From Deltaproteobacteria bacterium (GTDB lineage Bacteria > Myxococcota_A > UBA796 > GCA-2862545): 64,000 bases of DNA. Below the pieces are notes generated by a model. It was not told where the DNA came from, searched no databases, and saw nothing but the letters and a program-made list of their open reading frames with translations. Every line of letters starts with the position of its first letter. Position 1 is the stretch's first letter. The DNA is taken from positions 1 to 64,000 of the forward strand of contig REDI01000014.1 of NCBI GenBank assembly GCA_007693595.1. Reading direction: 5' to 3'. The translations under genes and the position numbers were made by a program. Shown here one piece after another: positions 25,042 through 29,505 of this stretch.

Positions 25042-25056
25042 GCCCAGCGCCTCAGC
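25037..25056. terminator. Hairpin with both convergent stop codons in its arms
   Basis: GCTGAG (25037-25042) and CTCAGC (25051-25056) are exact reverse complements with an 8-base loop. The left arm holds the hydrolase TGA, the right arm the TGA of the minus-strand unknown gene. Confidence 0.5.
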
Positions 25057-25960
25057 CCCCACTGGAGCTCGGCTCTGGCACGAGAGAGCCGAACCCTCCC
25101 GCGGCGCTCCGCGACCCAATCCGCGGGAAGTGACCTCGGACCGGACGAATAGGTTGAACATCCAGAGCGGGCTCGTCGAGGTGCGTCGAGAAGACCTCGA
25201 AGCCATCGCGCGCGCGATCGGCGAGCCAGGCCTCGACGTCTGGGGCGAGCTTACGACTCTTGTTGCCCAGGATGATCACCAGGCGATCGATGCCCTGCGC
25301 CTTGAGGAAGTTGCTCCCTGGAAGGAGGGTGTCATCGAGGTAGTAGCGGTTGTCGAAGTTGCCTGGGCTCGGGCGACGTCCGACCAGGCGGCTCGCATCA
25401 CACAGCCAGACGGGCGGGGAGTCGACCTTGATGAGCTCCCGAGCATCGGCGACGAGCGGGGAGTAATAGAGCAAAGCGGCCAGCGTGAACTCGGGCTTGC
25501 CCACCCCTCTGGGATGAGGCCAGTTATCGAAGGTGCAGACGGGCTGGCAGCCCCGCTGGATGAAGCGCACCCCGAGCGAGACCGCCGCAGGTCCGAAGAT
25601 GTCGATGATCACCATGGTGCTCTGGTTGAGCCAGTGCACCTCGATGGGCTGGTCGGGCACCTTGATCAGGGGTCGGTCCTCGATGCGTTCGACCACGCCA
25701 GGGGGTGGGGGGTGCGGCTTGGTCCGAGCGTGGCCGAGGGCCGCGAAGAGGGTCACGCAGTGGTACGGCTCGTAGGGGCTGTCAAACGCGGGGGCCCAGA
25801 GCTCAAAGAGGCTGCGCGGCGTCGCGTAGCGCGTCCAGGTGTCGCCGCCCCGGACATCGACGGCTCCGAGGGTGCCGATGGCGGGCACGAGACGTTCGAA
25901 GCGGCTGCGGTAGCGAAGATGGGTGAAGATCTCAAGGATCAACGACAGCGGTCGCCACAT
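25052..25960 (-). CDS. Unknown protein, third gene of the DUF350/ATP-grasp operon
   Basis: A 302-residue soluble-looking protein with no signal peptide that I cannot place in a family. Visible features: an N-terminal hydrophobic helix, alternating strands and helices with Trp and Pro (WLNQSTMVIIDIFGP, TFDNWPHPRG), a PVWLCDASRL segment, FDNRYYLDDTLLPG, and VIILGNKSRKL followed by a basic-acidic C terminus. Its ATG overlaps the end of the ATP-grasp gene by 29 bases; a TTG at 25942 is an alternative start. The overlap implies cotranslation and probably a shared pathway with the ligase and the DUF350 protein. Confidence 0.7.
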   Translation of the reverse strand: MWRPLSLILEIFTHLRYRSRFERLVPAIGTLGAVDVRGGDTWTRYATPRSLFELWAPAFDSPYEPYHCVTLFAALGHARTKPHPPPPGVVERIEDRPLIKVPDQPIEVHWLNQSTMVIIDIFGPAAVSLGVRFIQRGCQPVCTFDNWPHPRGVGKPEFTLAALLYYSPLVADARELIKVDSPPVWLCDASRLVGRRPSPGNFDNRYYLDDTLLPGSNFLKAQGIDRLVIILGNKSRKLAPDVEAWLADRARDGFEVFSTHLDEPALDVQPIRPVRGHFPRIGSRSAAGGFGSLVPEPSSSGG

Positions 25961-27128
25961 GGAGGGCCTCGTGGGTCAGGAGGGGCTTGGGCGCGGCCCG
26001 GCTGTAGTAGCCCGCGAAGGAACCATTTACGAGGTAGACCCCCACCGCCGGATAGAGGGGGCCCAACTGGAAGGGCATGGGCACGTGGCCGAAGCGACGC
26101 TGCGCCAGCCACCCGGAGGGATCGAGCTTGACTTCTTTGAGGGTCTCGGACCAGGTCTTGGGTGAGACCAGCGCCCCGATCACGACCGAGTCGCCCATGC
26201 GCCCGAAGGCCTGCTTGAGCACCCATGCCTCAGGTTCGTCACGGAGCTGCTCGAGCGACACGTCACGGCCCGCCTCGCCGGTCCACGGCGCGTGCCGATC
26301 GACAAAGGCGAGCTCCTCGGCGCTCAGGAGCCCTTCCTCACGCCAAACCGAAAAGAGTAGTTTACTCTGCCGGATCAAGCGCCGAAGCGGGTTGAGCATG
26401 GGCAGCTTGTCGCCCAGACGACGCCACCCATCGAAGTTGGGCAGACGGGGGAACCACTCGCCTGGATAATAGCGGAAAGCTGCCTCGATCGGCGTACCGT
26501 CGAGCTTGACTGTGCCCCATGACCGGCGGACGTGGGCTGGGGAGCCACGGCAGGTCGGGTGGCCAGCCGCCTCGAGCCAGTCTTCGATGATCAGGCAATG
26601 CTGTAGATCTTCGGAGTAACCCGTGGCAAAGATCGATCCTACAGGGCCGAAGGGCGACATGGCCTCGACCACCGCGCCACGAAGATCCCCCACGAAGCGG
26701 GCACGTCCAAAGCGCTCCCCGAGGAGCTCAGGCAAGCCCACCGCCTCGTTGAAGCCCCCGGGGACATCTTCGTTGAACTCGGAGAGCATCCAGCCGCCCT
26801 CGGGGGTCGGGTGCAGGTCGTAGCGGGCGAGCTGAAGCTCGTGAGCCGGCCCCGCGCGCAGGATCGGGTACATCTCTCGGGGGATCCCTAGGCGATCGAG
26901 CAGGCGCGGGGTGCGGGCCACGATCGCTTCGAGCTTGGTGAGGATCTGACCGAACCGCTCGGAGATCTGGATCACCTCTCGGTGCACCTCGCCAGGGAGC
27001 ACGAGGGTCTCGGGGAGGATGCCTTCGTGGCCGCAAGCATAGAGATCCCACTTGTGGTAGCGAAACTGGAGCTCCCGCATGAGTTCCCGGCGCTCCGGCA
27101 GCTCGAGCCCCCACGACGTCGCGTGCAT
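25932..27128 (-). CDS. Glutathionylspermidine-synthase-type ATP-grasp ligase (YjfC-like)
   Basis: ATG 27128 overlaps the DUF350 stop by one base (TGATG), giving 398 residues, normal for YjfC-type proteins. The product matches the C-terminal synthetase domain of glutathionylspermidine synthase: RYHKWDLY, LSEFNEDVPGGFNEA (residues ~125-140), KLDGTPIEAAFRYYPGEWF and VLKQAFGRMGDSVVIG with the ATP-grasp Lys, and a C-terminal YPAVGVYLVNG. It is expected to join a carboxylate to an amine using ATP. The amidase half of Gsp is absent. The acceptor is unknown; association with DUF350 proteins is established for this family. Confidence 0.85.
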   Translation of the reverse strand: MHATSWGLELPERRELMRELQFRYHKWDLYACGHEGILPETLVLPGEVHREVIQISERFGQILTKLEAIVARTPRLLDRLGIPREMYPILRAGPAHELQLARYDLHPTPEGGWMLSEFNEDVPGGFNEAVGLPELLGERFGRARFVGDLRGAVVEAMSPFGPVGSIFATGYSEDLQHCLIIEDWLEAAGHPTCRGSPAHVRRSWGTVKLDGTPIEAAFRYYPGEWFPRLPNFDGWRRLGDKLPMLNPLRRLIRQSKLLFSVWREEGLLSAEELAFVDRHAPWTGEAGRDVSLEQLRDEPEAWVLKQAFGRMGDSVVIGALVSPKTWSETLKEVKLDPSGWLAQRRFGHVPMPFQLGPLYPAVGVYLVNGSFAGYYSRAAPKPLLTHEALHVATAVVDP

Positions 27129-27931
27129 CAGATGTCGCTCCAGCCAGGGATGAGATTGAGCAGCAAGGGAACTCCGAAGCCCGAGATCAGATAGAGTGCG
27201 CTCTCGAAAAGGCGGCTCCCACCCGTAACCCTGGAGTGCACCAAGCGGAAGATCTCGTGAATGACGAGCAAGACCACCACCTGACCGATCGCGGCCAGCC
27301 CGTGCGCCCATCCAAAGAAATCGCCGGCGACCGCGGTCGAGATGATCCAGGCCAGGCTCAAGGCGTAGGTGAAGGTGGCTCGCCCCGCCCCCACGCTGCG
27401 CTCCCCGACGAGTTGGTAGCGCATGCCGTGACGTTCACGCCGGGAGAAGAACGTGAGCGCCGCCGCGAAGACCCCGTAGCCAAGAGCAAAGAAGCCAACC
27501 GGAATCCACCAGCCCCCCTCGTCGTCGGAGTGGGGGTCCGCCTCGCCCCACAGGCAGCTCCCAAAGATGATCCCTACCGCGAGGTAGATGCCGGTGATGG
27601 CGAGGGCCGCGGCAGGGTTGCGGCGCTCGCACACATCGACCTGAAACCGAACGCCGAGCATCCCTTCGGCCAGGTGGCCCCCCCAGAGCGTAAAGGCGTA
27701 GGCGAGTACGACGTAAAAGGCCATGTAGATGGGCGTCACGCTGGCATCCGCGAACAGCAGCAGCACGTAGAGCGCATAGATCAGCGCGCCAAAGACCCCA
27801 AGGCGGGTCAGACCCGGGTAGGGGTTTCGCTCCAGGTGCATGGGCTCTAGGTAGTACGTGCCCTTGAAGAGGTAGTAGAGCCCCACAGCCCCACCACCAG
27901 CGAGGAAGATCAGGATCTCGTCTTCTTCCAC
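27128..27931 (-). CDS. DUF350 family membrane protein (YjfL-like)
   Basis: A 267-residue protein with about seven predicted membrane helices. The DUF350 hallmark RNPAAALAITGIYLAVGIIFG lies near residue 115 with paired helices around it. GTG 27931 is preferred because GGAGG precedes it by five bases; 19 extra in-frame codons upstream would give a charged leader. It is the first gene of a three-gene overlapping operon with the ATP-grasp ligase and an unknown protein. In known genomes DUF350 proteins occur with such ligases and PspA-like proteins; the function remains unproven. Confidence 0.82.
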   Translation of the reverse strand: MEEDEILIFLAGGGAVGLYYLFKGTYYLEPMHLERNPYPGLTRLGVFGALIYALYVLLLFADASVTPIYMAFYVVLAYAFTLWGGHLAEGMLGVRFQVDVCERRNPAAALAITGIYLAVGIIFGSCLWGEADPHSDDEGGWWIPVGFFALGYGVFAAALTFFSRRERHGMRYQLVGERSVGAGRATFTYALSLAWIISTAVAGDFFGWAHGLAAIGQVVVLLVIHEIFRLVHSRVTGGSRLFESALYLISGFGVPLLLNLIPGWSDI

Positions 27932-28056: not shown

Positions 28057-29505
28057 ATGAGCCGTCCGATCCTCACCCGCCTGCTCCGTCGCATCGCCGA
28101 GGACGCGCCGACCTCCGCCGAACGTCGGGCCTTCCTTAAAGGCTCCGTAGCGCTGGGCGCCTCCATGCTCGTCTCGAGCCGCTCCTGGGCCGCCTCCCCC
28201 ACCAAGGGGCGCGTCCTGATCCTCGGAGGAGGACTGGCCGGGCTCAGCGCCGCCTTCGAGTGTCGCGCCGCAGGCCTCGACGCCCAAGTCTTCGAGGCCC
28301 GCAGTCGGGTGGGCGGCCGGGTCTTGTCCATCGCCGGCGACGGCCAGCACCACGAGGCGGGCGCCGAGCTCATCGGCACCAACCACCCTCGCTGGCTTGC
28401 CTATGCCGAGCAGCTCGATCTCTCCCTGAGCCCGCTGACCGATCACGACGGCGACGAGGTCGTGATCCTCGACGGCAAGCAGCTCAGTAAGCGGGAGGTC
28501 CAGCAGCTCTGGCGACGGCTCAACCGCCCGATCCGACGCCTCACCAAGCTCGCCCGCGAGGTGCCCGCTACGACCCCTTGGCGCGCGGAAGGCGCGGCCT
28601 CCCTGGACCTTCAGAACGTGCACGCCTACCTCATGGATCGCGGAGGCCACCCCGAGGGTGCCGCCTTCTTGTCCATGCTGTTCGGCTCCGACGCGGCCGT
28701 CCCGAGCGAGGCTCAGAGTCTCCTAGGCCTGCTCGCCTGCATACAGGGCGGGGGCGGCGAGCGCTTCTGGACCGAATCCGAAGCCCTGCGCTGTGCGGGG
28801 GGCAACCAGAGCCTCGCGCAAAAACTCGCCGAAAAGCTTGGGGACCGCGTCTCGCTGCGCCGCCCCGTGAGGGCTGTGAGGTGGGGAGCCTCTCCGCCCC
28901 AGATCGAGCTCGAGGATGGAACCACGCACGAAGGGGACGCCATCGTCCTCGCCGTCCCCCCAACGGTATGGGGCGCGATGACCTTCGACCCACCCCTTCC
29001 CCCCGAGCTTCGCCCCTCCATGGGGCCCGCAGTCAAGCACCTCACCCGCCTGAGGCGCGCCGTCTGGGATGACACCCAACGGAGCCCGGCTGCCTACGCC
29101 GACGGCGTGGTCTCGCTCACCTGGGACGGCACCGAGGGTCAGGCGGGAGAGAAGCGATGGTTGGTCGCCTTTTCGGGCGCCGGGCAAGCCGACCGGGGCC
29201 TCGCCTTGTCCGACGAGGCACGAGAGACCCGCTACACCGAGGAGCTCGAAGGCATCTTCCCCGGCTTCCGCGAGGTCGCCGAGGAGCGACGGTACTACGA
29301 CTGGCCCCGCGACCCCTTGACCCTCGCGGGCTATTCGTGCCCCGGCGTCGGCGAGGTCACCACGATCCAGCGCACCCTTCACGAGGGGCTCTTCCCGCTG
29401 CTCTTCGCGGGCGAGCACTGCTCCACGGCGTTCCCAGGCTACATGGAAGGCGCGCTCGAGAGCGGGGTGCGCACCGCCCGAGCGCTCGTCGCTAAGCTGG
29501 GCTGA
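28057..29505 (+). CDS. Tat-exported flavin amine oxidase
   Basis: The 482-residue product has a twin-arginine signal (RRAFLKG near residue 22, hydrophobic stretch, then AWAAS). The FAD motif ILGGGLAGLSAAFEC follows, then ARSRVGGRV, and the C-terminal FAD segment LLFAGEHCSTAFPGYMEGA. These define the monoamine oxidase/phytoene desaturase superfamily. It probably oxidises an amine in the periplasm; the substrate is unknown. GGAG precedes ATG. It overlaps the ParA gene tail to tail by 14 bases, with the TGA inside a small hairpin. Confidence 0.88.
   Translation: MSRPILTRLLRRIAEDAPTSAERRAFLKGSVALGASMLVSSRSWAASPTKGRVLILGGGLAGLSAAFECRAAGLDAQVFEARSRVGGRVLSIAGDGQHHEAGAELIGTNHPRWLAYAEQLDLSLSPLTDHDGDEVVILDGKQLSKREVQQLWRRLNRPIRRLTKLAREVPATTPWRAEGAASLDLQNVHAYLMDRGGHPEGAAFLSMLFGSDAAVPSEAQSLLGLLACIQGGGGERFWTESEALRCAGGNQSLAQKLAEKLGDRVSLRRPVRAVRWGASPPQIELEDGTTHEGDAIVLAVPPTVWGAMTFDPPLPPELRPSMGPAVKHLTRLRRAVWDDTQRSPAAYADGVVSLTWDGTEGQAGEKRWLVAFSGAGQADRGLALSDEARETRYTEELEGIFPGFREVAEERRYYDWPRDPLTLAGYSCPGVGEVTTIQRTLHEGLFPLLFAGEHCSTAFPGYMEGALESGVRTARALVAKLG

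Follow-up and report, generated by a model that had tools for sequence, protein, structure and literature searches.

A conserved operon encoding a DUF350 membrane protein, a GSP_synth-type ATP-grasp ligase and a third protein whose Gly/Ser-rich C-terminal tail is a candidate ligase substrate

Glutathionylspermidine synthetase (GspS) couples spermidine to glutathione through the C-terminal glycine of the latter. YgiC and YjfC of the same ligase family carry RefSeq names as peptide--spermidine ligases, and no statement of the physiological substrate of YgiC/YjfC-type ligases was found in the literature searched. Both enzymes have been reported to be peptide-spermidine ligases (Pederick et al., 2023, as cited in excerpts of PMC12568646 and PMC12270671). 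DUF350 operons that are linked to PspA/CesT and contain a GSPS-like ATP-grasp protein, with a predicted polyamine/membrane link, are likewise described in excerpts of Ravi et al., 2024 (PMC11237479). The window considered here, i.e., the whole stretch of 64,000 nucleotides that was analysed, contains a ligase of this type within a three-gene operon.

A three-gene operon and its conservation across phyla

The three genes lie on the minus strand and overlap by 1 nt (DUF350/ligase, TGATG) and 29 nt (ligase/third gene, 25932..25960), which confirms the coordinates and strand given in the initial annotation. The first gene (27128..27931, minus strand), with a GGAGG just 5' of its GTG start, encodes a protein of 267 aa with two DUF350 stretches and at least six hydrophobic segments by hydropathy; its match to PF03994 (E 3.2e-8; 34.2 bits against a Pfam cut-off of 26) upholds its earlier description as a DUF350 membrane protein. 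The second (25932..27128, minus strand) encodes a GSP_synth-type ATP-grasp ligase of 398 aa (PF03738, E 3.1e-10; 40.2 bits against a curated cut-off of 29.3), with the Pfam match spanning nearly the entire protein and the amidase domain absent, as had been proposed from the sequence. In an alignment with E. coli Gss, YgiC and YjfC, core columns were defined as the ATP-grasp positions conserved between GspS (Gss), YgiC and YjfC, and all ten are kept. The conserved residues of the ligase are R102, D104, E117, N119, E173, D174, K256, K305, Q343 and R377, and the columns kept in it and its relatives are, in Gss numbering, R316, D318, E330, N332, E391, E392 (as Asp), K498, K533, Q568 and R598. Since the ligase retains the catalytic columns of GspS, YgiC and YjfC, the loss of conserved ATP-grasp residues that the initial annotation had named as speaking against its proposal is not seen. 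Its reading of this gene thus stands, while the later report on YgiC and YjfC as peptide-spermidine ligases had been missed. The third gene (25052..25960, minus strand) encodes a protein of 302 aa with a Rossmann-like core and a C-terminal tail.

A contig scan of genomes with the third protein yielded ten homologues, in Planctomycetes, Verrucomicrobia, Gemmatimonadetes and Trueperaceae, that are 34-41% identical to it over almost the full length. Directly before the third gene, eight of the ten loci carry a full or near-full homologue of the ligase (42-54% identity), and in six of these eight a DUF350 homologue stands in front. The two exceptions are a locus with only a C-terminal ligase fragment (L009) and one with no adjoining ligase (L007), and in both genomes an intact ligase is found elsewhere. 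The 29-nt overlap is of identical length in the window, two Verrucomicrobia, one Gemmatimonadetes and one Trueperaceae locus (L002-L005), pointing to inheritance or transfer of the operon as one block. A plasmid search with the ligase and third protein of the window gave no match. As homologues at 34-41% identity keep the ligase-then-third-gene order in several phyla, the arrangement is more than chance, and the three-gene operon is a real, conserved unit.

Within the phylum of the window, profile searches detected the third family in 25 of 237 genomes and the ligase family in 24 of 226. Both occur together in 21 genomes (Fisher 1.2e-22 for ligase/third-family co-occurrence), 20 of which have the two genes on one contig, a few kb apart, and 18 of which have DUF350 within about 5 kb. 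The ligase-only genomes comprise one with a full amidase-synthetase GspSA (G182), one with a fragment (G027) and one with a different context (G199). In the window's own family of organisms the operon was found in one of 13 sampled genomes and is therefore patchy there. DUF1190 is absent from the window's genome and from all 226 sampled genomes of its phylum, so that its place is taken there by the third family. This distribution, with the ligase adjacent in 8/10 homologue loci and DUF350 nearby in 18 genomes of the own phylum, is a strongly positive result for the recurrent linkage that the initial annotation had proposed to look for; homologues occurring mostly without DUF350 or the ligase, the opposite outcome, were not seen. 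Its interpretation of the overlaps as the sign of one complex or pathway is likewise supported by the recurrent association of third gene, ligase and DUF350.

As a separate observation, a secreted Lys/Gly-rich protein ending in GKGGSCKG is encoded at L055:44-433 (minus strand), downstream of a GSP_synth-type ligase lacking a partner from the third family; it may represent a further type of tail carrier.

The third protein and its C-terminal tail

The initial annotation had been unable to assign the 302-residue protein, and the searches bear this out: it has no match in Pfam or NCBIfam, and two AlphaFold models compared with the PDB gave none at E <= 0.001. The profile of the family, searched against PDB sequences, retrieved HAD phosphatases only, at E 0.38, and these were rejected as noise. 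Across Planctomycetes, Verrucomicrobia, Gemmatimonadetes, Trueperaceae and the window's phylum, the proteins thus form a family for which neither Pfam nor NCBIfam has a model and no solved fold gives a match. Most of the Rossmann-like core, which includes an FDNW motif, was modelled at high confidence, and an alignment of 29 divergent members revealed invariant D120, R191, D203, R205, P214 and D241. Distant members are longer (450-500 aa), and in most of them an N-terminal hydrophobic segment is preceded by Arg-Arg. Such Tat-like starts, often present among the distant members L028-L041, suggest export of a folded, already modified protein. Inspection revealed no signal peptide in the third protein or in its close relatives, and the tail is present all the same.

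The codons of the conserved tail, SRSAAGGFGSLVPEPSSSGG, occupy positions 25055..25114 (minus strand). Following a variable linker, the family alignment gives the consensus R[SN]xxGGFGxx[IV]P[ED]PSSSxG, in which R284, G288-G289-F290-G291, P295, P297 and S298 are invariant in the close family. The final residue is always Gly in the close family; with distant members included, it is Gly in 26 and Ser in three of the 29. The distant proteins end in Gly/Ser-rich sequence, often with an altered GGFG motif. AlphaFold pLDDT values of 25-32, and likewise the second model, indicate that the tail is predicted to be disordered, and it is proposed here as a substrate or recognition site of the ligase. The GGFG pattern, searched at DNA level in the window's own genome, showed no excess over the reversed control (113+99 versus 108+103). 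The earlier statement that the third gene lies outside the YjfL/YjfC set was correct; the conserved C-terminal tail that ties it to YgiB/YjfM had been overlooked.

Similar tails beside related ligases and what they may mean

In E. coli K-12, YgiB, encoded beside YgiC, has a similar Gly/Ser-rich C-terminal tail, and YjfM, encoded beside YjfC, has the C-terminal end SRGGYGRSSSARGHWGG, the last part of which is RGGYGRSSSARGHWGG. Gly/Ser-tailed neighbours of plasmid-borne ligases were also found in Rhizobium, Paracoccus, Asticcacaulis, Azospirillum, Indioceanicola, Acinetobacter, Deinococcus, Nonomuraea, Bacillus, Leptolyngbya, Trichormus and Paraburkholderia; GGFG is often present in their tails, and several of these carriers have no DUF1190 match. 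The unrelated scaffolds that bear such tails include small proteins of Deinococcus, Actinomycetota, cyanobacteria and Bacillus. A simple tail rule, requiring that G and S make up 40% or more of the last 20 residues and that the final residue be G or S, was passed by 14 of 14 partners, by 27 of 29 third-family members and by 0 of 115 other genes of these loci. Since the partners were picked after their tails had been seen, the comparison serves more as a description than as a blind test. Two ligases have no tail protein adjoining them, namely those of Photobacterium (L079) and of an Azospirillum brasilense plasmid (L086:4956-6107). Catalytic residues have been lost from the latter (CNYD replaces ENxD), which looks, from its sequence, like a pseudoenzyme; the one ligase seen with such a loss is thus also without an adjacent tail protein. 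No account of the tail was found in the literature searched, which did not cover the primary study of YgiC/YjfC activity or a 2012 comparison; a proposal concerning the YgiB/YjfM tail may pre-exist.

Several of these neighbourhoods have features of their own. The cyanobacterial partners (L087:3506-4675 and L088:3772-4902) present yet another scaffold: they are long, with a hydrophobic segment at the N-terminus, and end in a Gly/Ser tail. On a Bacillus plasmid (L089:4410-6725), successive genes encode a small lipoprotein-like Gly/Ser-tail protein, a GSP_synth-type ligase and a poly-gamma-glutamate hydrolase, with NADAR and macro domain genes close by; the reverse reaction might be carried out by this hydrolase.

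The recurrence of such tails beside related ligases, on otherwise dissimilar proteins, points to the tail as the target of modification by the enzyme. The reading we favour, with slightly better than even confidence, is that the ligase amidates the C-terminus of the third protein with an amine, at the membrane with DUF350. The operon would then be a membrane-associated protein-modification set, in which the ligase would use ATP to convert the carboxylate of the third protein's C-terminal glycine into an acyl phosphate and would then couple it, as an amide, to an amine that may be a polyamine, for example spermidine. The tail with its GGFG...SSSGG sequence, rich in Gly/Ser, would act as a flexible handle entering the ligase, like the C-terminal glycine of glutathione in glutathionylspermidine synthetase. 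Such a handle would be modular, a similar one being carried by the DUF1190 lipoproteins YgiB and YjfM and by other small proteins, and here by a Rossmann-like domain, while DUF350 would either localise the reaction to the membrane or engage with the product once modified. We infer from these comparisons the tail as substrate, the polyamine as amine, and what DUF350 and the core domain do. In the window's own genome, AdoMet decarboxylase is absent, no convincing spermidine synthase was found (a spermine-synthase domain occurs only inside open frames of 1046 and 710 aa) and nspC gave only a weak, sub-threshold match; as the standard spermidine genes looked for are lacking there, spermidine may not be the amine. 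Counted against the tail as substrate are the three members that end in Ser, the post hoc choice of partners and the Photobacterium ligase without a tail protein.

Alternatively, the tail could serve for docking or recruitment, keeping ligase and third protein together, and the third protein, with the invariant Asp/Arg/Asn residues of its Rossmann-like core, could be an enzyme that makes or processes the small molecule joined by the ligase. The invariance of the same six core residues in 29 members, together with the confident modelling of most of the core, indicates more than a passive carrier and gives this reading an appreciable, if minor, probability. What the partners have in common, however, is the tail and not the core, since DUF1190 and other partners have no Rossmann-like domain, and for docking, neither a position at the very C-terminus nor a final Gly/Ser would be required. 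Less probable still is that the tail is a feature of membrane, envelope or secretion, the ligase then having a substrate, peptide or metabolite, that is unrelated to it. Among the tail carriers, many resemble lipoproteins or have a membrane segment at the N-terminus, and Gly/Ser-rich tails are found in surface proteins generally, but the third protein and its close relatives keep the tail with no signal peptide by inspection, and such a tail is carried by 0/115 other genes of the same loci.

The ligase might, finally, make a free peptide-polyamine or another small amide, which the third protein and DUF350 would sense, process or export. The product of GspS is itself a small metabolite, and a gene for a flavin amine oxidase with a Tat-like N-terminus (28057..29505, plus strand; PF01593, E 1.8e-59; PDB 3rha, E 1.6e-33), whose nearest solved relative is putrescine oxidase, is divergent from the operon. 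No homologue of this oxidase was found near other copies of the operon, however, so that it was rejected as a member of the system and is possibly only a neighbour; the conserved tail would moreover be left unexplained, and we regard this as the least probable of the readings weighed. Returning to the tail as substrate, a wider form of the proposal is put forward tentatively, at somewhat less than even confidence: a general bacterial C-terminal amidation, in which the GGFG plus Ser/Gly tail would be a transferable tag, capped with an amine by GSP_synth-type ligases and spread onto several unrelated scaffolds, including the undescribed Rossmann-like family. The shared tail type is in any case a concrete and easily tested substrate candidate for YgiC/YjfC-type ligases in E. 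coli and many other bacteria; if it is the substrate, it would define an amine modification of protein C-termini.

Comparison with known systems

The ligase shares with GspSA the ATP-grasp synthetase domain and an equal catalytic core, and GspSA ligates to a C-terminal glycine. GspSA differs in its fused amidase domain, which the ligase of the window does not have, and in acting on glutathione, in place of which a conserved protein tail is proposed here; in the window's phylum, true GspSA is a separate gene (G182, L053). The operons of Ravi et al. (PMC11237479) also combine DUF350 and ATP-grasp, with the predicted polyamine/membrane link, whereas their partners, in the excerpts of that study, are DUF1190, DUF2491, DUF4247, DUF2617 or band-7 proteins, and no counterpart of the third protein is named there. 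The E. coli yjf operon has DUF350 as well (YjfL), and the Psp-linked yjfIJKLMC set includes PspA, DUF2170 and DUF2491, none of which was found in the six flanking genes scanned in the window (22.5-32.8 kb). YgiC and YjfC with YgiB and YjfM are likewise among the closest known systems. Their ligases differ from the subfamily of the window at its fixed residues T169, N246, Q254 and F346, and YgiB and YjfM are DUF1190 proteins (PF06693), whereas the partner in the window has no DUF1190 match and belongs to the Rossmann-like family without a Pfam model. The ligase family (PF03738) and its catalytic residues are the same, as is the adjacent partner with a GG[FY]G...G tail.
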